A DNA stretch of 64,000 nucleotides from Lachnospiraceae bacterium (GTDB taxonomy: Bacteria; Bacillota; Clostridia; Lachnospirales; Lachnospiraceae). Below, piece after piece: positions 7,867 to 56,095 of this stretch. The position numbers and the translations under genes are program-made. A model generated the notes under the pieces. It worked only from the letters and a program-made list of their open reading frames with translations, searched no databases and had not been told where the DNA came from. Position 1 is the first letter of the stretch. Every line of letters begins with the position of its first letter. The stretch covers positions 31,564-95,563 of the forward strand of contig JAMPFQ010000008.1 in assembly GCA_023664345.1 (NCBI GenBank), written 5' to 3'.

Positions 7867-8454
7867 TTAAAGGCTTCCCTTTGTACTGAGCACATCCGTG
7901 ATGCGGGGATCTGTTCCCACGGCCTGATCCAAAGCTTTCGCAAAGGCCTTGAACATGGCTTCCGTCATGTGATGCGCGTTGATGCCGTCCAGCATCTTGA
8001 GATGCAGGTTCATACCGGCGCTGTAGGAGACGGCATAGAAGAATTCTCTCACCAGTTCGGTATCCAGCCCGCCCACACGCTCTACCGAAAAAGTACAGTC
8101 AAAATTCAGATATGGCCTGCCGCAGAGATCTATCGCGCAGAGCGCCAGTGCATCGTCCATGGGCAGGATAAAGAAGCCGTAGCGGCGGATGCCTTTCTTG
8201 TCCCCCACCGCCCGGGCAATGGCCTGTCCCAGCACGATTCCCGCATCCTCCACGGTATGGTGCCCGTCCACATGCAGGTCGCCCTTTACATTACATTTCA
8301 AGTCAAAAAATCCGTGCCTGGAAAATCCCTCCAGCATGTGGTCAAAGAAACCGATGCCCGTGGAGATTTCCGATACTCCCGTGCCGTCCAGATCCAGGGT
8401 CAGGAAAATTTCCGTCTCTTTCGTTTTACGCTCTATTGTCGCTGTCCGTGCCAT
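7867..8454 (-). CDS. hisB: Imidazoleglycerol-phosphate dehydratase
   Basis: Sixth step of histidine synthesis, dehydration of imidazole glycerol phosphate to imidazole acetol phosphate by a manganese enzyme. The two metal-binding His motifs are present: HVDGHHTVED at about residue 70 and INAHHMTEAMFKA near residue 168. The length of 195 residues is that of the monofunctional enzyme. The start is supported by AGGAGG five bases upstream. A long hairpin repeat (8467-8575) ends directly before this ribosome-binding site, separating hisB from hisD by 173 bases, so expression of hisB may depend on that structure. Confidence 0.97.
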   Translation of the reverse strand: MARTATIERKTKETEIFLTLDLDGTGVSEISTGIGFFDHMLEGFSRHGFFDLKCNVKGDLHVDGHHTVEDAGIVLGQAIARAVGDKKGIRRYGFFILPMDDALALCAIDLCGRPYLNFDCTFSVERVGGLDTELVREFFYAVSYSAGMNLHLKMLDGINAHHMTEAMFKAFAKALDQAVGTDPRITDVLSTKGSL

Positions 8455-8466
8455 ATGATCCTCCTG

Positions 8467-8626
8467 TTCCAGTTCCGTCTCTTCACTTCAGCCCCCTTTG
8501 CGGAGGAAGAAATTTTCATCTGTACAGACCACAGCTGAAAATTCCTTCCGGGGGCTTCCGTTCCGAGACTGTTTTTATTCAATTACCGTTTACGGTAATT
8601 TGTTCCGTCTCTTCACTTCAGCCCCC
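8467..8626 (-). repeat. SD-proximal hairpin repeat, copy 1, with truncated extra arm
   Basis: A hairpin about 105 nt long between hisD and hisB. Pairings: GTCTC (8477-8481) with GAGAC (8565-8569); AGCCCCC (8490-8496) with GGGGGCT (8550-8556); a 14-bp inner stem 8505-8518 with 8536-8549 (one mismatch). On the minus strand it ends in GGAACTGGAACA joined to the AGGAGG of hisB. A palindrome AATTACCGT/ACGGTAATT follows at 8581-8600, then a second copy of the outer arm only (8602-8626), next to the hisD stop. It shares layout but not stem sequence with copies at 25581, 25687, 41351 and 55983. Confidence 0.75.
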
Positions 8627-8627
8627 G

Positions 8628-16787: not shown

Positions 16788-16900
16788 GATATCACAACCC
16801 TTTCTGTTTGATCCCAATTCCGCACGTTCCTTGCATCATGCTGTCTTTGGCAGAGTCATTTCCAGCCGCAGGATCCATGCGCCCGCAAATGCTCTGGGCA

Positions 16901-17677
16901 TTATGCGGGAGAATGCTGTTTTAAATATCTCATCGCCTTGAAGAGCAGGTCGTGGGGAACTGCCTTGGCAAGGCACTGGAAGTATTTGATGGGCAGGCCG
17001 TACACGGACATGGTACGCTTATAGTAGGAATCTTTCAGCGCCAGCGCCACCACTTTGTCCGGGCTTACCATGGTATACTTCTTGATGGAAAGGGTGGTTC
17101 CCGTTTTCTCCGCAATGTCAAAAAAGGGTGTGTCCACGGGGCCGGGACAGACGCTGGTGACATAGATCCCGGCTTCCTTAAGCTCCTCTCCCAGCGCCCT
17201 GGAAAAGCTTAACACATATGCCTTTGTAGCCGCGTAGACCGCAAAGTCCGGCTGGGGCAGGAAAGCCGCGCTGGACGCCATCTGGATAATGCGGCTGTTC
17301 TTTCGCATATAAGGGATCATGCGATGGGTCAGGGCGGTCAGTGCCTCGCAGTTCAAACGAACCATCTCCTGCGCCGTCATGCGCTCCTGCTCGCTGAAAG
17401 GCCCCATGACTCCGAAGCCCGCCGCGTTGATCAGCATCCTCACGGTGGCGTTTTTCTCGATCAGCAGATCCTCAAGGACATCCAGCTTTTTATCGTCCGT
17501 GATATCCATGGCGATCACCCTTGCCTTATGCTCCAGCACTTTCGCCACTTCCTCCAGATGTTCCCTGTTCCTGGCAATCAGCCAGAATTCATCAATCGTA
17601 ACAAAGTAATTGTCCATCTGCATGGCAAATTCCATGCCGATGCCTGAGGACGCTCCTGTGATGATTGCAACATTCAT
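16901..17677 (-). CDS. Short-chain dehydrogenase/reductase
   Basis: NAD(P)-dependent oxidoreductase. Rossmann motif TGASSGIG at residues 7-14, NAAG at about 87-90, the catalytic Ser in MASSAAF and the YAATK catalytic Tyr/Lys pair, then CPGPVDTPFF. At 258 residues it is a classical SDR. The C-terminal region (YYKRTMSVYGLPIKYFQ) is hydrophobic and may bind a lipid or membrane; similar proteins are annotated as acyl or steroid reductases, but the substrate is not evident. GGAAGGG lies before the start. Confidence 0.92.
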   Translation of the reverse strand: MNVAIITGASSGIGMEFAMQMDNYFVTIDEFWLIARNREHLEEVAKVLEHKARVIAMDITDDKKLDVLEDLLIEKNATVRMLINAAGFGVMGPFSEQERMTAQEMVRLNCEALTALTHRMIPYMRKNSRIIQMASSAAFLPQPDFAVYAATKAYVLSFSRALGEELKEAGIYVTSVCPGPVDTPFFDIAEKTGTTLSIKKYTMVSPDKVVALALKDSYYKRTMSVYGLPIKYFQCLAKAVPHDLLFKAMRYLKQHSPA

Positions 17678-25004: not shown

Positions 25005-25565
25005 TTATCCGACCGTCTCCGCTTTTCGGATGAACAGATGCTTATTTGTTCTGTACTTCTTTTCCTTTTGTACGGTGTAGCCCATTGCCTCCAGATAAGA
25101 GAAATCCGTATCCAGCGCGGCCTCCACCACGATCAGGGTATCCTCTGTGACATAACGCATATCCCGCAGCAGCGACAGGACATTTTTCTCATATCCGCTC
25201 TGGTAAGGCGGATCCATGAAGATCACATCCGCATTTTCCTTGCCGATGCCGGACAGGCCGCTGAACACATCCTGCTTTAATACTATAGCACGGTCCTCCA
25301 GTTTCGTAAATGTAAGATTTTGCCGGATGCAGGAGATCGCTTTCGACGCGTTGTCAATAAAATATGCTTTCCTTGCGCCGCGGCTCAGCGCCTCGATGCC
25401 GATCCCGCCGCTGCCGCTGAACAGGTCAACAAAGACAGCGTCAGGCACATAGGTCTGCAGCATATTAAATAAGGTTTCCTTTATCCGGTCAGTGGTAGGT
25501 CTGGTGTCCATCCCCTCCGGTGCTTTCAGGGGAAGTCTTCTGGCTGTTCCTGCGATCACTCTCAT
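25005..25565 (-). CDS. rsmD: 16S rRNA (guanine-966-N2)-methyltransferase RsmD
   Basis: SAM-dependent methylation of G966 in 16S rRNA. RVIAGTARRLPLKAPEG opens the protein, then RPTTDRIKETLFNML, the SAM motif VDLFSGSGGIGIEALSRGA at about 46-65, and the catalytic DPPYQSG near residue 120. The length of 186 is typical. AAGGAG precedes the start, and directly upstream lie two tandem copies of the hairpin repeat (25581-25790) that occupy the whole gap to the topoisomerase gene. Confidence 0.96.
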   Translation of the reverse strand: MRVIAGTARRLPLKAPEGMDTRPTTDRIKETLFNMLQTYVPDAVFVDLFSGSGGIGIEALSRGARKAYFIDNASKAISCIRQNLTFTKLEDRAIVLKQDVFSGLSGIGKENADVIFMDPPYQSGYEKNVLSLLRDMRYVTEDTLIVVEAALDTDFSYLEAMGYTVQKEKKYRTNKHLFIRKAETVG

Positions 25566-25580
25566 AATAATAACTCCTTA

Positions 25581-25686
25581 TTCCAGTTCCGCTTCTTCAC
25601 TACAGCACCCATGCCAGCGGAAAGGTTGTTCAGCCGCGTTTGCGTCTGAAAACCTTTTCGGGCGCTTCCGTTCCGAAGCTGTTTGA
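25581..25686 (-). repeat. SD-proximal hairpin repeat, copy 2
   Basis: First of two direct tandem units (period 106 bp). On the plus strand: GCTTC pairs with GAAGC, an AGCACCC/GGGCGCT stem, and an inner stem GGAAAGGTT.TTCAG / CTGAA.AACCTTTTC around the loop CCGCGTTTGCGT. On the minus strand the unit ends in CGGAACTGGAATAAGGAG, so its conserved junction merges with the rsmD ribosome-binding site. Confidence 0.8.
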
Positions 25687-25790
25687 TTCCAGTTCCGCTT
25701 CTTCACTACAGCGCCCATGCCAGCGGAAAGGTTGTTCAGCCGCGTTTGCGTCTGAAAACCTTTCCGGGCGCTTCCGTTCCGAAGCTGTTT
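25687..25790 (-). repeat. SD-proximal hairpin repeat, copy 3 (tandem with copy 2)
   Basis: Differs from copy 2 at about two positions in 104 (AGCGCCC for AGCACCC, and CCTTTCC for CCTTTTC); both changes improve pairing, so this unit is a nearly perfect hairpin. It abuts the stop codon of the topoisomerase subunit gene. Confidence 0.8.
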
Positions 25791-28030
25791 TAGGCGCGGA
25801 TCTTTGTTCCCTTGCCATCACGTTTGGCAAGCTTTAAGTCGTTTAAGGTAATGTGCTTCTCTTTGTAAACGATCTCCTCATTGTCAATGACTTTGGTATA
25901 ATATACCGCTTCCACGACGTCCTTTGCGCTCAGCTTCATGCCACGGACGCCGACGGCTCCCTTTTTCTTCTCGGGGATCTCCTCGATCAGGAAACGCAGG
26001 AAATAGCCCTCTTTCGTCTGCAGGATGATATTTCGCTGCTCTGACAGTGTGGTGACGCTGACCACGCTGTCCCCCTCGGCAAGCTTTGTGGCTGCCACGG
26101 TACGCTTCGCCACGTCAAACTCCCCGCCGTCCACGATCTTCAGCATGGACTGGGCGGTGACAAAGACAAGCTGACGCAGGTTCAAATCCGTCTGGCTGGC
26201 AATGTAGACAATCTCCTCTTTCTCGGAATTGAAATTGCTGACATTGTCTATGGGCGTACCCTTGTCACGGAATTTGCCAAAAGGCAGATCCATGACCTTG
26301 ATGGTGTGCAGCTGCCCCGTATCAGTAAAAAGGCAGACCTTTCCGGTATTTTTGCAGGTGACCACAAATCTGTTCTCGCCATCGGCTGCCTCCCTGTTCC
26401 TTTCGTAGGTGGGCATATCGATGATCTTGGCATAGCCAAAGCGGTCCATGAGGAAGATCACTTCCATCTCTTCCACTTCTTTTTCCTTATAGACGGCTTC
26501 CTCTGCGTTCTCTATGACGGTCCTGCGTTTTCTTCCGTATTCTTTTTTATAGCCGTCCAGTTCGTTCATGATGACCTGAGCCATGGAATCCCGGCGGTCT
26601 AAAATGTCCTCATAACGATAGATATTGGCCATGGTCTCCTCGTGCTCATTGATCAGCGCCTCGATCTCCAGGCCGATCAGCTTGTACAGGCGCATCTCCA
26701 GGATGGCATTGGCCTGCTTCTCCGTAAACATCAGCTGGGTGGCCATGATTCTAGATTCCTTGCTCTTGAACTTGATGCCGTCGATCTTGCCCTCCACCAG
26801 ACAGGCTTTCGCCATGGCACGGTCTTTGGAGCCTCGCAGGATCTCGATGATCAAATCGATCACGTTGCAGGCCTTGATCAGTCCCTCCTGGATCTCCTTT
26901 TTCTCCAGTTCTTTCGCCAGCAGATTGGTATATTTCCTGGTGGCGATCTCAAACTGAAAGTCCACGTTCGCCTTGATGATGGCTTTCAGTCCCATGGTCT
27001 CCGGCCTGCCGTTGTAGATGGCCAGCATGTTGACCCCGAACGTATCCTCCAGCCTGGTCTTTTTGTAAAGCAGGTTCACGAAGTTTTCCGGATCCGCGTC
27101 CCTGCGCAGTTCGATCACAATGCGGATTCCCTCTTTGGAAGACTGATTGGAGATATCCACAATGTCCTGGGTCTTCTTCGTCTCCGAAAGCGCTGCCACA
27201 TCGGACAGGAACTTGGAGATATTGGCGCCGATCATGGTATAGGGGATCTCCGTGATGACCACGTTGGTCTTGCCGCCCTTGACCTTTTCAAATTCCACCT
27301 TGCCCCGGAGTTTGATCTTGCCCGTGCCGGTCTCGTAGATGTTCAGCAGTTCGTCCTTGTTGGTGACGATGCCGCCGGTGGGGAAATCCGGGCCTTTTAA
27401 GTGGCGCATCAGTTCCCTGGTGGTGATATTTTCATCCAGCATATAGGCTTTAACGGCGTCGATCACTTCGTTCAGGTTATGGGGCGGGGTGCTGGTGGTC
27501 ATGCCCACGGCGATCCCCTCTGATCCGTTCACCAGAAAATTGGGGATCTTCACGGGCAGGACTTCCGGCTCTTTCTCCGTCTCGTCAAAGTTTGGCATGA
27601 AATCCACCACGTCCTTATCCAGGTCCCCCAAAAAGGCCTCCTGGGTCACTTTCTGGAGTCTGGCCTCGGTATAACGCATGGCAGCGGCGCCGTCCCCCTC
27701 GATATTGCCGAAATTGCCGTGGCCGTCCACAAGGGGCATCCCTTTCTTGAAATCCTGGCTCATGACCACCAGCGCGTCGTAGATGGAACTGTCCCCGTGG
27801 GGATGGTATTTACCCATAGTATCGCCCACGATACGGGCGCTCTTACGGTAAGGTCTGTCATAGCGGATGCCCAGTTCGTGCATATCGTAGAGGGTCCGGC
27901 GCTGCACCGGCTTTAAGCCGTCCCTGACATCCGGCAGCGCCCTGGCGATGATGACGCTCATGGCATAATCTATAAAAGATTTCTGCATCTCCTCAGAGTA
28001 TTCTGTTTTGATGATCCTGTTGTCGTCCAT
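25790..28030 (-). CDS. parC: Type IIA topoisomerase subunit A, topo IV (ParC)-like
   Basis: DNA-cleaving subunit that acts with the ParE-like protein encoded at 29057. The breakage-reunion domain begins at about residue 25 (SVIIARALPDVRDGLKPVQRR). The quinolone-determining region GKYHPHGDSSIYDALV has the usual Ser and Asp-type positions; the catalytic Tyr follows in AMRYTEARL. The C-terminal beta-pinwheel (about 490-746) lacks a recognisable GyrA box (QRRGGKG), and at 746 residues it is shorter than most GyrA, so topo IV is favoured over gyrase. Alternative: a second gyrase-like enzyme. AAAGG lies eight bases before the ATG. Confidence 0.88.
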   Translation of the reverse strand: MDDNRIIKTEYSEEMQKSFIDYAMSVIIARALPDVRDGLKPVQRRTLYDMHELGIRYDRPYRKSARIVGDTMGKYHPHGDSSIYDALVVMSQDFKKGMPLVDGHGNFGNIEGDGAAAMRYTEARLQKVTQEAFLGDLDKDVVDFMPNFDETEKEPEVLPVKIPNFLVNGSEGIAVGMTTSTPPHNLNEVIDAVKAYMLDENITTRELMRHLKGPDFPTGGIVTNKDELLNIYETGTGKIKLRGKVEFEKVKGGKTNVVITEIPYTMIGANISKFLSDVAALSETKKTQDIVDISNQSSKEGIRIVIELRRDADPENFVNLLYKKTRLEDTFGVNMLAIYNGRPETMGLKAIIKANVDFQFEIATRKYTNLLAKELEKKEIQEGLIKACNVIDLIIEILRGSKDRAMAKACLVEGKIDGIKFKSKESRIMATQLMFTEKQANAILEMRLYKLIGLEIEALINEHEETMANIYRYEDILDRRDSMAQVIMNELDGYKKEYGRKRRTVIENAEEAVYKEKEVEEMEVIFLMDRFGYAKIIDMPTYERNREAADGENRFVVTCKNTGKVCLFTDTGQLHTIKVMDLPFGKFRDKGTPIDNVSNFNSEKEEIVYIASQTDLNLRQLVFVTAQSMLKIVDGGEFDVAKRTVAATKLAEGDSVVSVTTLSEQRNIILQTKEGYFLRFLIEEIPEKKKGAVGVRGMKLSAKDVVEAVYYTKVIDNEEIVYKEKHITLNDLKLAKRDGKGTKIRA

Positions 28031-40969: not shown

Positions 40970-41329
40970 TTAATCAATCACTCGGACACCATCTACATAG
41001 ATGTTGATCTTTTCGATCTCAATGCCGGTAAACTCTTCCACTTTATATTTTACGCTGTCGACCAGGTTATCCGCCACAGCCAGAATACTCACGCCGTATG
41101 CAACGATCACATGAAAATCGAGGATCAGCTTATTCTTGTTCAGGGATACACTGATCCCTCTGGTAATACTGTCCATCTTCAGAAGCTTGACAATGCCGTC
41201 TTTCATGCTTACTCCGGCCATGCCGACAATACCAAAGCATTCCACCGCGACGCTGCCCGCGTATTGAGCGATCACTTCATTGTCAATGACGATATTTCCC
41301 ATATGGGTATTCATAGAAGAACCTTTCAT
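40970..41329 (-). CDS. Asp23/Gls24-family protein (YloU)
   Basis: Small alkaline-shock/cell-envelope family protein. Hallmarks: GNIVIDNEVIAQYAGSVAVECFGIVGMAG, GISVSLNKNKLILDFHVIVAYG and the C-terminal VDGVRVID. At 119 residues it is the YloU size. ATG at 41329 or at 41314 (AAAGG seven bases upstream) may be used. Directly upstream lies a copy of the SD-proximal hairpin repeat. It is divergently oriented from rpmB, the usual arrangement. Confidence 0.92.
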   Translation of the reverse strand: MKGSSMNTHMGNIVIDNEVIAQYAGSVAVECFGIVGMAGVSMKDGIVKLLKMDSITRGISVSLNKNKLILDFHVIVAYGVSILAVADNLVDSVKYKVEEFTGIEIEKINIYVDGVRVID

Positions 41330-41350
41330 ATCGCTACCATTCCTTTCTTA

Positions 41351-41475
41351 TTCCAGTTCCGCATGTACCCGCCCAGCGCCCAGACATGGCAGAAAAATTT
41401 CTGTCCCAGGATCAGGGCCTGAAATTTTTCTAGGGCACCGGCCAGGCACATGCTGTCAGTTCCGCATGTACCCGC
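41351..41475 (-). repeat. SD-proximal hairpin repeat, copy 4, with truncated extra arm
   Basis: GCATGT pairs with ACATGC as the outer stem, AGCGCCC with GGGCAC-type bases next, and an 11-bp inner stem AGAAAAATTTC/GAAATTTTTCT. The outer arm (CAGTTCCGCATGTACCCGC) recurs alone at 41457-41475. On the minus strand the unit ends in CGGAACTGGAATAAG just before the yloU ribosome-binding site. Confidence 0.75.
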
Positions 41476-41555
41476 GGACATATATGTTATATTCTAACAG
41501 CTTTCCCTGAAAAAGGAAACAATAAATACAAAAAATAAAAAAAGAATTTTTTTAC

Positions 41556-55367: not shown

Positions 55368-55485
55368 TTATTCCCGTGAGCAATGAGCCAAACGGCCATC
55401 CTTGCAGCCAACCATGGTTGGCTTGGACATTTGGCGAATGCCGCGAGGGTCAATGCCCCGTTGCTTGCAGCGGGATTATTGACTA
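55368..55485 (+). repeat. Mosaic palindromic intergenic repeat, copy 2
   Basis: Plus-strand relative of the element at 23586-23815: TTATTCCCGTGAGCAATGAGCC, a central palindrome GCCAACCATGGTTGGC, CTTGGACATTTGGCGAATG, CCGCGAGGGTCAA and TTGCTTGCAGCGGG, then TTATTGACT. It lies downstream of leuD and upstream of the MATE gene, in the opposite orientation to both. Confidence 0.75.
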
Positions 55486-55961
55486 TTGATATAATTGATC
55501 AGTCCCTCGGAGGCTATGATCTTCTGCATGAACTCAGGGAATGCCTGACCCTTAAAAGTCGTCCCCTTTGTCACATTTGTGATCACGCCTGTGTCAAAGT
55601 TCACTTCCACCTCATCTCCCGCTTCGATCCCCTTGCTGGCCTCGGGACATTCGATGATGGGAAGCCCGATGTTGATGGCATTTCTGTAAAAGATCCTGGC
55701 GAAAGTCTCCGCGATCACACAGCTGACTCCCGCCGCCTTGATGGCGATGGGCGCGTGTTCCCTGGAGGAGCCGCAGCCAAAATTCTTTTCCGCCACGATA
55801 ATATCGCCCTTCTGCACTTTCTTGATAAATTCCGTGTCGATATCCTCCATGCAATGGGCTGCAAGTTCCGCCGGGTCGGAGGTATTTAAGTATCTCGCGG
55901 GGATAATGACGTCCGTATCCACATTGTCGCCATATTTGAAAACTGTTCCTTTTGCGTTCAT
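55476..55961 (-). CDS. leuD: 3-Isopropylmalate dehydratase small subunit
   Basis: Small swivelling subunit that completes the aconitase-like isomerase of leucine synthesis. The 161-residue protein shows [36 protein letters not shown] and the C-terminal [22 protein letters not shown] precedes the start. A copy of the hairpin repeat (55983-56077) lies directly upstream, between leuC and leuD. No leuA or leuB is in the window. Confidence 0.97.
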
Positions 55962-55982
55962 ATCTGTATTATCTCCTTATTA

Positions 55983-56077
55983 TTCCAGTCCTGCACATAT
56001 CATCCCTAACAGGAAAGCATTGTTCATCCGTTTGCGCGTTTGAAAATTTTTCCGGGCGATACCGCTCAGGGACTGCT
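55983..56077 (-). repeat. SD-proximal hairpin repeat, copy 5
   Basis: CAGTCC pairs with GGACTG as the outer stem and GGAAA-GCATT-GTTCA with TTGAA-AATTT-TTCC as the inner stem, around the loop TCCGTTTGCGCGT. On the minus strand the end is CAGGACTGGAATAATAAGGAG, again joined to the leuD ribosome-binding site. Confidence 0.7.
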
Positions 56078-56095
56078 GCCATTCAAATATTTTCC

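Follow-up and report, generated by a model that had tools for sequence, protein, structure and literature searches.

Folded repeats that precede Shine–Dalgarno sequences throughout the genome of a Lachnospiraceae bacterium

Introduction

Why should hisB, rsmD, yloU and leuD, four unrelated genes, each begin behind the same kind of folded repeat? The question arises in the window, a stretch of 64,000 nucleotides from a Lachnospiraceae bacterium (assembly GCA_023664345.1, contig JAMPFQ010000008.1), in which an earlier note had described five such units, two of them in tandem before rsmD. Their stems were said to differ between loci and to stay complementary, and their 3′ ends to run into the Shine–Dalgarno (SD) sequence. 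Two explanations were offered, a translational control element and an element that inserts before ribosome-binding sites. Here, we follow the repeat through the genome from which the window comes (the source genome) and through its relatives, and we weigh these explanations against others.

Results

Units in the window and their anatomy

The covariance model found five units in the window, all on the minus strand, before hisB, rsmD (twice), yloU and leuD (Table 1), and direct reading placed them at the same positions as the earlier note. Its description of a 3′ tail that leads into the SD in every case also held, as the tail, GGAACTGGAAYA (GGACTGGAATA at leuD), was read to end no more than about 5 nt from the SD in five of five units. 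Alignment and single folds agree with the claim that the stem arms differ between loci yet remain complementary. On the other hand, the claim that all five units fold into stems stood for four of them, whose single folds were better than those of most dinucleotide shuffles (z −2.45 to −5.25), but not clearly for the leuD copy, whose fold was equalled by 29 of 200 shuffles (z −1.18). In the rsmD tandem, the first base of unit 1 overlaps the TAA stop codon (25790–25792) of the gyrA/parC-like ORF upstream. Spacer modules of the AAATTACCGTAAACGGTAATTGAAT kind, seen here at hisB, are also present at other loci. A weak match elsewhere in the window, where a tail-like sequence precedes another gene, is perhaps a decayed copy.

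Table 1. Positions of units, partial copies and genes. Coordinates refer to the window, except in the last three rows, which refer to loci of the MAG ERR6760096_bin.74.
Feature	Position	Strand	Remarks
hisB	7870..8454	−	
hisB unit	8465..8574	−	105.7 bits; hisB ATG at 8454
Palindromic spacer module AAATTACCGTAAACGGTAATTGAAT	8577..8601	−	between left R copy and hisB unit; direct reading
Left partial copy R1 of hisB unit	8602..8627	−	3′ arm only; directly 3′ of hisD stop codon
Candidate decayed sixth copy	16810..16921	−	weak match, 19.6 bits, E 0.0059
rsmD, gene behind the tandem	25008..25565	−	
Unit 2 of rsmD tandem	25579..25684	−	109.9 bits; tail end 13 nt 5′ of ATG at 25565
Unit 1 of rsmD tandem	25685..25790	−	112.4 bits; follows gyrA/parC-like ORF
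yloU (Asp23)	40973..41329	−	
Divergent yloU unit	41349..41458	−	60.6 bits; yloU (Asp23 family) ATG at 41329
Left partial copy R1 of yloU unit	41459..41479	−	
leuD	55479..55961	−	
Divergent leuD unit	55981..56078	−	57.4 bits; between leuC and leuD
Sibling-like family, L140	7120..7334	+	
Sibling-like family, L158	2554..2660	−	
Sibling-like family, L176	3916..3985	+	

A unit is about 105 bases long, is often found in tandem and often carries an extra arm R on its left. In order, it consists of AAACAG, the 5′ arm of P1, GNA-AC-GNA, the 5′ arm of P2, the apical hairpin P3, a bulge, the 3′ arm of P2, GNA-GU-GNA, the 3′ arm of P1 and the tail CGGAACTGGAAT; more simply, arm A precedes the apical hairpin and arm R follows it. 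The bases GGAACGGA, described earlier as kept and unpaired, are conserved but not simply unpaired; they form one side of an 8 × 8 internal loop, GNA-AC-GNA/GNA-GU-GNA. The G and A positions of its four GNA motifs were kept in 113–117 of 117 distinct units. This loop is probably a non-canonical helix, in which sheared G·A pairs may form. At the unit ends, the P1 arms are subterminal inverted repeats, and the outer repeats, which are copies of arm R, are direct (R … R). Two modules vary this plan, namely a palindrome of the AAATTGCCGCAAGCGGCAATTGAAT type, which follows CGGAAC, and a CAATGTGCC..GGCACATG-type hairpin that takes the place of part of P2. The GC content of the units is 0.44–0.60.

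A partial copy of the 3′ arm often starts a cluster of units, its local match being better than those of 20 shuffles in 41 of 77 long-unit clusters. A left R in the strict sense (complementary P1 arm plus GGNA) was counted in the clusters that met the length and motif conditions (71 of 92 in the source genome and 35 of 37 in relatives), and it was present in 30/71 and 23/35 of them, respectively. By complementarity alone, the counts were 35/71 and 24/35, compared with 11.6% in shuffles. In the predicted folds, arm A paired with the left R in 26 clusters and with the right R in 27, out of 53.

Copy number and placement in the source genome

How far does the repeat extend beyond the window? With a covariance model built from 26 units, we found at least 129 units in the source genome (E ≤ 0.001), a lower bound since 150 of 2640 candidates were scored, and far more than chance would give. 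After merging, they formed 92 clusters (60 single, 27 double and 5 triple). The earlier observation is thus confirmed as a whole, on a far larger scale than was noted. BLASTN with the rsmD tandem as the query gave 46 matches in this genome, which were 66–90% identical to it, excluding the query itself.

A downstream ORF was readable for 89 of the 92 clusters. The distance from the unit end to its start codon was at most 25 nt in 78 of these and at most 40 nt in 88, and these 88 clusters run in the orientation of that gene. Because open-frame starts can occur by chance, the 3′ side was compared with the 5′ side and with random points as controls for 91 clusters (one cluster too close to a contig end was left out). 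A start codon with an SD lay within 40 nt on the 3′ side of 82/91 clusters, compared with 2/91 on the 5′ side and 171/1820 random points; when an SD was not demanded, the counts were 88, 29 and 790. Consequently, the matches are not scattered with respect to start codons, which is the check that the earlier note had proposed.

The tail GGAACTGGAAT adjoined the SD core with zero gap in 47 of 72 recognised tails and with a gap other than zero in the remaining 25. In 20 of the 92 clusters, there was no tail of the searched form, partly because a palindromic module intervenes. On the upstream side, 75 of 92 clusters had an open frame on the same strand, 90 codons or longer, that ended within 160 nt (a count taken without a random control), and in several of them the stop codon of that frame touches the unit. 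At proS and pheS (L010, L014), GGGTGGTACCGC motifs, presumably of the T-box type, occur upstream of the units, so that the unit is placed between a T-box-like transcription-control leader and the SD.

Covariation and the folded strand

Has the fold been kept by selection, and on which strand? The covariation alignment comprised 121 matches from a search given 98 loci (83 from the source genome, 19 from G014, 13 from G020 and 6 from G021; 117 distinct), and it was made to the model, hence biased toward the structure of the model. Paired cells reached 95.3%, compared with 83.2% in shuffles and 43–53% in slid controls, and changes on both sides were seen in 21 of 23 base pairs. Compensatory cells numbered 357 versus a shuffled mean of 76, with none of 500 shuffles reaching 357. 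By this shuffle test, the covariation is strong, and the compensating changes that the earlier note had read as selection on RNA structure are borne out.

A comparison independent of the model was provided by units at the same gene in two species. We used 15 positions picked for a full-length unit in both species; at least five shared places with solo, short or variant copies (C22:24299, C43:37873, C47:13868, C5:106850 and C11:247650) were excluded. At these positions, 32 compensated pairs were found versus 5.8 expected from random placement of the same changes, and 23 broken pairs versus 60.9 expected, which indicates that the fold was kept after dispersal. Furthermore, G-U pairs far exceeded A-C pairs on the sense strand (86 versus 15); therefore, the mRNA strand is the strand that folds.

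Does the folded unit hide the SD? Accessibility of the SD–start region was computed for the 66 of 92 clusters that met the conditions, and its predicted value was 0.561 with the unit and 0.566 without it (p = 0.90), so that sequestering of the SD by the unit was unsupported. When the unit was replaced by shuffles, accessibility fell to 0.525 (p = 3 × 10−4), and the real unit gave the higher value in 48 of 66 clusters, a small effect in a prediction. The unit seems to be built to fold on itself, with the SD predicted to be left open.

Downstream genes and conservation of sites

We scanned 44 distinct proteins of the 89 downstream proteins. Those identified were mostly housekeeping: proS, pyrD, a glycoside hydrolase, grpE, glpK, an ammonium transporter, clpB (cut by the locus end), asnS, fabH, accD/accA, hisB, rsmD, leuD, murD, rnz, pheS, rmlA, grcA3, an Asp23 protein, a Band_7 protein, regulators and others. 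An ATP synthase c-like subunit scored under its cut-off, and several proteins had no family. No common function or pathway was found among these 44 of 89 proteins, nor was there a conserved association with a functional gene set of the kind that marks a cis-regulatory RNA regulon.

The gene sets differ per species. Only 3 of the 34 downstream proteins compared from G014, G020 and G021 were orthologous to the set of the source genome (66–81% identity), and G014 and G020 have three pairs of downstream genes in common. Closer relatives have many unit positions in common with the source genome, in a set of loci picked by pattern and hence biased. Three shared genes out of 34 are more than chance would give (about one, if a genome has some 3500 genes), and several units are common to closer relatives, so that part of the set is inherited or preferred. 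At leuD (loci of 19 relatives) and hisB (loci of 18), the model found no unit except at the source genome's own loci; G001 has none at either gene despite 97% and 88% identical proteins. By eye, the hisB leader of G001 contains a palindrome resembling the spacer module, possibly a remnant.

Distribution among relatives

In a close sample of 41 genomes, searched with strict filters and at most 96 candidates scored per genome, units were found in six, all of the source genome's own genus (at least 96 in the source genome, 6 in G001, 42 in G014, 44 in G019, 42 in G020 and 28 in G021). Under the strict filters, no unit was found in 19 of 24 genomes of the same genus, and 16 genomes of other families were without units. 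A family-wide sample, with strict filters and 13 candidates scored per genome, had units in 6 of 299 genomes (6 of 298 genera), and the exact 17-base tail pattern was present in 3/396. The distribution is patchy.

Nine loci from five other genera had the same layout with other stems and with tails such as GGAACTCAAAAT; the units were followed by a further unit in two of them and by an SD-like stretch and a start in seven. A 21-base pattern matched 97 stretches of named genomes, of which we examined 80; the groups named were Lachnospiraceae, Acetatifactor, Blautia or Clostridia, and a few of these loci had a solo arm or tail alone, or were perhaps chance matches. Viral contigs gave no match to one exact 21-base pattern, nor did phage and plasmid records to the rsmD tandem as a blastn query. 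The repeat family has apparently spread independently in several Lachnospiraceae.

Two further observations concern similar sequences. The MAG ERR6760096_bin.74 carries a sibling-like family of the same layout, with the tail GCGGAACTGGAATAGGAG and quite different stems (19–35 bits; Table 1). In D16-50, a tandem repeat of about 34 bases lies upstream of a gene (L173, upstream of 2846, minus strand) whose own-genome relative (63% identity) carries units.

Solo arms and tails

Solo arms and tails occur at sites where relatives have units. In JAMPAC (Blautia sp. NALB_7811_2), a single 3′ arm with its tail stands where the source genome has a double array, and in G001 and the source genome, too, some starts are preceded by arms and tails that are solo or shortened. 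Such remnants may result from deletion between the direct repeats. At a locus that we take to be nnrD-alr, a solo tail in the source genome (L355) forms the last codons and the stop of the nnrD-like gene before the next gene, and in G001 (L360) a full unit lengthens the protein. We considered the solo tail as a pre-existing target and rejected this, as a 77% relative (G449) has a different C-terminus; more probably, the tail was left behind when a unit was lost.

An inverted pair of units about 4 kb apart in G020:C42 was considered as a composite element and turned out to be an inverted duplication of ordinary ORFs. The same ORFs occur there twice (L130, G020:C42:4500-11200), inverted around the middle of the contig, probably an assembly artefact.

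Comparison with known systems

At the gathering threshold, Rfam release 15 gave no match in the window, and four loci searched at E up to 5 gave one weak match, outside the units. The family, which the earlier note could not name, thus corresponds to no known Rfam family in the window or at these four loci, and among the systems tested here, it belongs to none. Among the open-access papers listed in our literature searches, none was seen to describe the repeat, and by these searches it is unpublished.

Many dispersed hairpins conserved by pairing are also a feature of REP/REPIN sequences with their RAYT (Y1) transposase, and in this respect the units resemble them. REPs are, however, extragenic and not known to be tied to SDs, and the Y1 transposase was unmatched in the source genome. 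Like cis-regulatory leader RNAs and riboswitches, the units are a covarying structure directly 5′ of the ribosome-binding site. Unlike riboswitches, they have no Rfam match and precede unrelated genes at about 90 places in one genome, in a gene set that is not conserved.

In the published description used here (PMC3049150), the BOX elements of Streptococcus pneumoniae are modular, tandemly variable, strongly folded repeats in transcribed spacers, over-represented between convergent genes, with extensive past proliferation and slow insertion at present. The units are likewise modular, tandemly variable, folded and intergenic, with one to three model matches per cluster, a likeness and not a membership. 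Set against that description of BOX, they differ in that almost all clusters end at an SD and are oriented with the gene. MITEs are portrayed in the account consulted (PMC10969869) as short, non-coding, palindromic, dispersed and patchy between species. The units share each of these traits. Set against that portrait of MITEs, they differ in that they are not AT-rich. Terminal inverted repeats bordered by duplicated target sites were not recognised in them, and no related transposase was found among the two enzyme families tested. On the DNA side, the unit would work like a BOX/MITE-like repeat and, on the RNA side, like a self-contained 5′ leader.

Three candidates for a mobiliser were discarded. 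The Y1 transposase had no match in the source genome and none in four of the six unit-bearing sample genomes. Reverse transcriptase occurred in 6/11 unit-bearing and 9/11 unit-free genomes and so showed no association. A Band_7 gene that has a unit in two species does not encode a transposase.

Discussion

What, then, is the repeat? We think it probable that it is a BOX/MITE-like dispersed element that came to lie behind one gene's stop codon and ahead of the following SD and was kept as a self-folding leader that spares the SD. Copies lie upstream of the SD, in most cases right after the stop codon that ends the gene before, and have the orientation of the mRNA. Once transcribed, A and R would form a rod interrupted by two conserved GNA/GNA internal loops, with the SD and the tail, which is rich in purines, left single-stranded. 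As the self-folded unit would spare the ribosome-binding site, the gene would stay on and the native leader would be replaceable. The element would have spread in the manner of BOX/MITE-type elements and have strongly preferred the few nucleotides 5′ of the SD, and selection would afterwards have kept the fold at each gene, as a leader, an insulator or a protection of the mRNA end.

What the data show directly is the placement, the orientation, the covariation and its sense-strand bias, the differing gene sets, the patchy distribution and the solo arms and tails at sites where relatives have units; the open SD is a prediction, and we infer insertion as the cause, the SD region as its preferred landing site and the insulator or leader role. 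The 66–90% identity of the matches in the source genome speaks against recent spread; therefore, the dispersal is old. We saw no case in which a recently inserted copy faced an empty site in a near-identical strain, and no mobiliser was found in the searches for Y1 transposase and reverse transcriptase. Since the gap between tail and SD is variable, the apparent SD-directed landing could reflect selection after random insertion. Between the two options of the earlier note, insertion before ribosome-binding sites fits better than translational control, because the gene sets differ, there is no common pathway and the predicted fold spares the SD; translational control by some factor is possible.

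Could the units instead constitute a true translational regulon of about 90 genes controlled together, with their GGA-rich loops and tail recognised by an RNA-binding protein (for example, of the CsrA type) or by a ligand? CsrA binds GGA, conserved GGA motifs lie in the loop and in the tail beside the SD, and the structure has been selected at each gene. Five CsrA-type domains are present in the source genome (on C4, C11, C14, C17 and C33, four of them in frames of 144–192 codons), and the 24 relatives have 0–3 each. However, CsrA occurs in 20 of the 25 genomes irrespective of the presence of units and went undetected in G020, a genome with 42 units that is only 80% complete, so that CsrA as the reader shows no association with the units. 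As the identified genes are also unrelated and differ between species, and the fold leaves predicted SD accessibility unchanged, we regard a regulon as unlikely. A two-state switch, in which A pairs with the left or the right R and upstream translation or a factor picks the helix beside the SD, would agree with the strict left R of 30/71 source-genome and 23/35 relative clusters and with the even split of predicted pairing (26 left, 27 right, of 53). Yet no usable left R is present in 41 of the 71 source-genome clusters, tandem repeats also produce one trivially, and the SD is unpaired in either state, which makes a switch improbable. Finally, template switching in DNA could keep the arms of a palindrome complementary without any function, and tandem copies, internal deletions and solo remnants do bespeak repeat instability. 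Such upkeep should, however, correct the mismatched GNA/GNA loops, which are conserved, and a DNA process indifferent to strand should yield as many A-C as G-U pairs, not 15 and 86; we consider it very improbable.

Returning to the dispersed element that folds as a leader, a bolder form of this explanation, which we entertain as a possibility with some doubt, is that the SD region itself is the landing site. A class of mobile DNA would then slip in behind the stop codon and ahead of the SD, always in the orientation of the mRNA, and its own folded leader would keep the gene translatable. It would be an ancient and distinct kind of repeat, present with other stems elsewhere in the Lachnospiraceae. 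To our knowledge, the known small bacterial repeats occupy spacers and have no fixed link to translation signals; an SD landing site, if real, would add a new type of target for mobile DNA. The covariation on the sense strand makes the fold directly testable. With about 90 unrelated genes in one genome, the repeat offers a natural library of swapped 5′ leaders, which may serve questions on how structure near the SD relates to translation, on coupling and on mRNA stability in gut bacteria.
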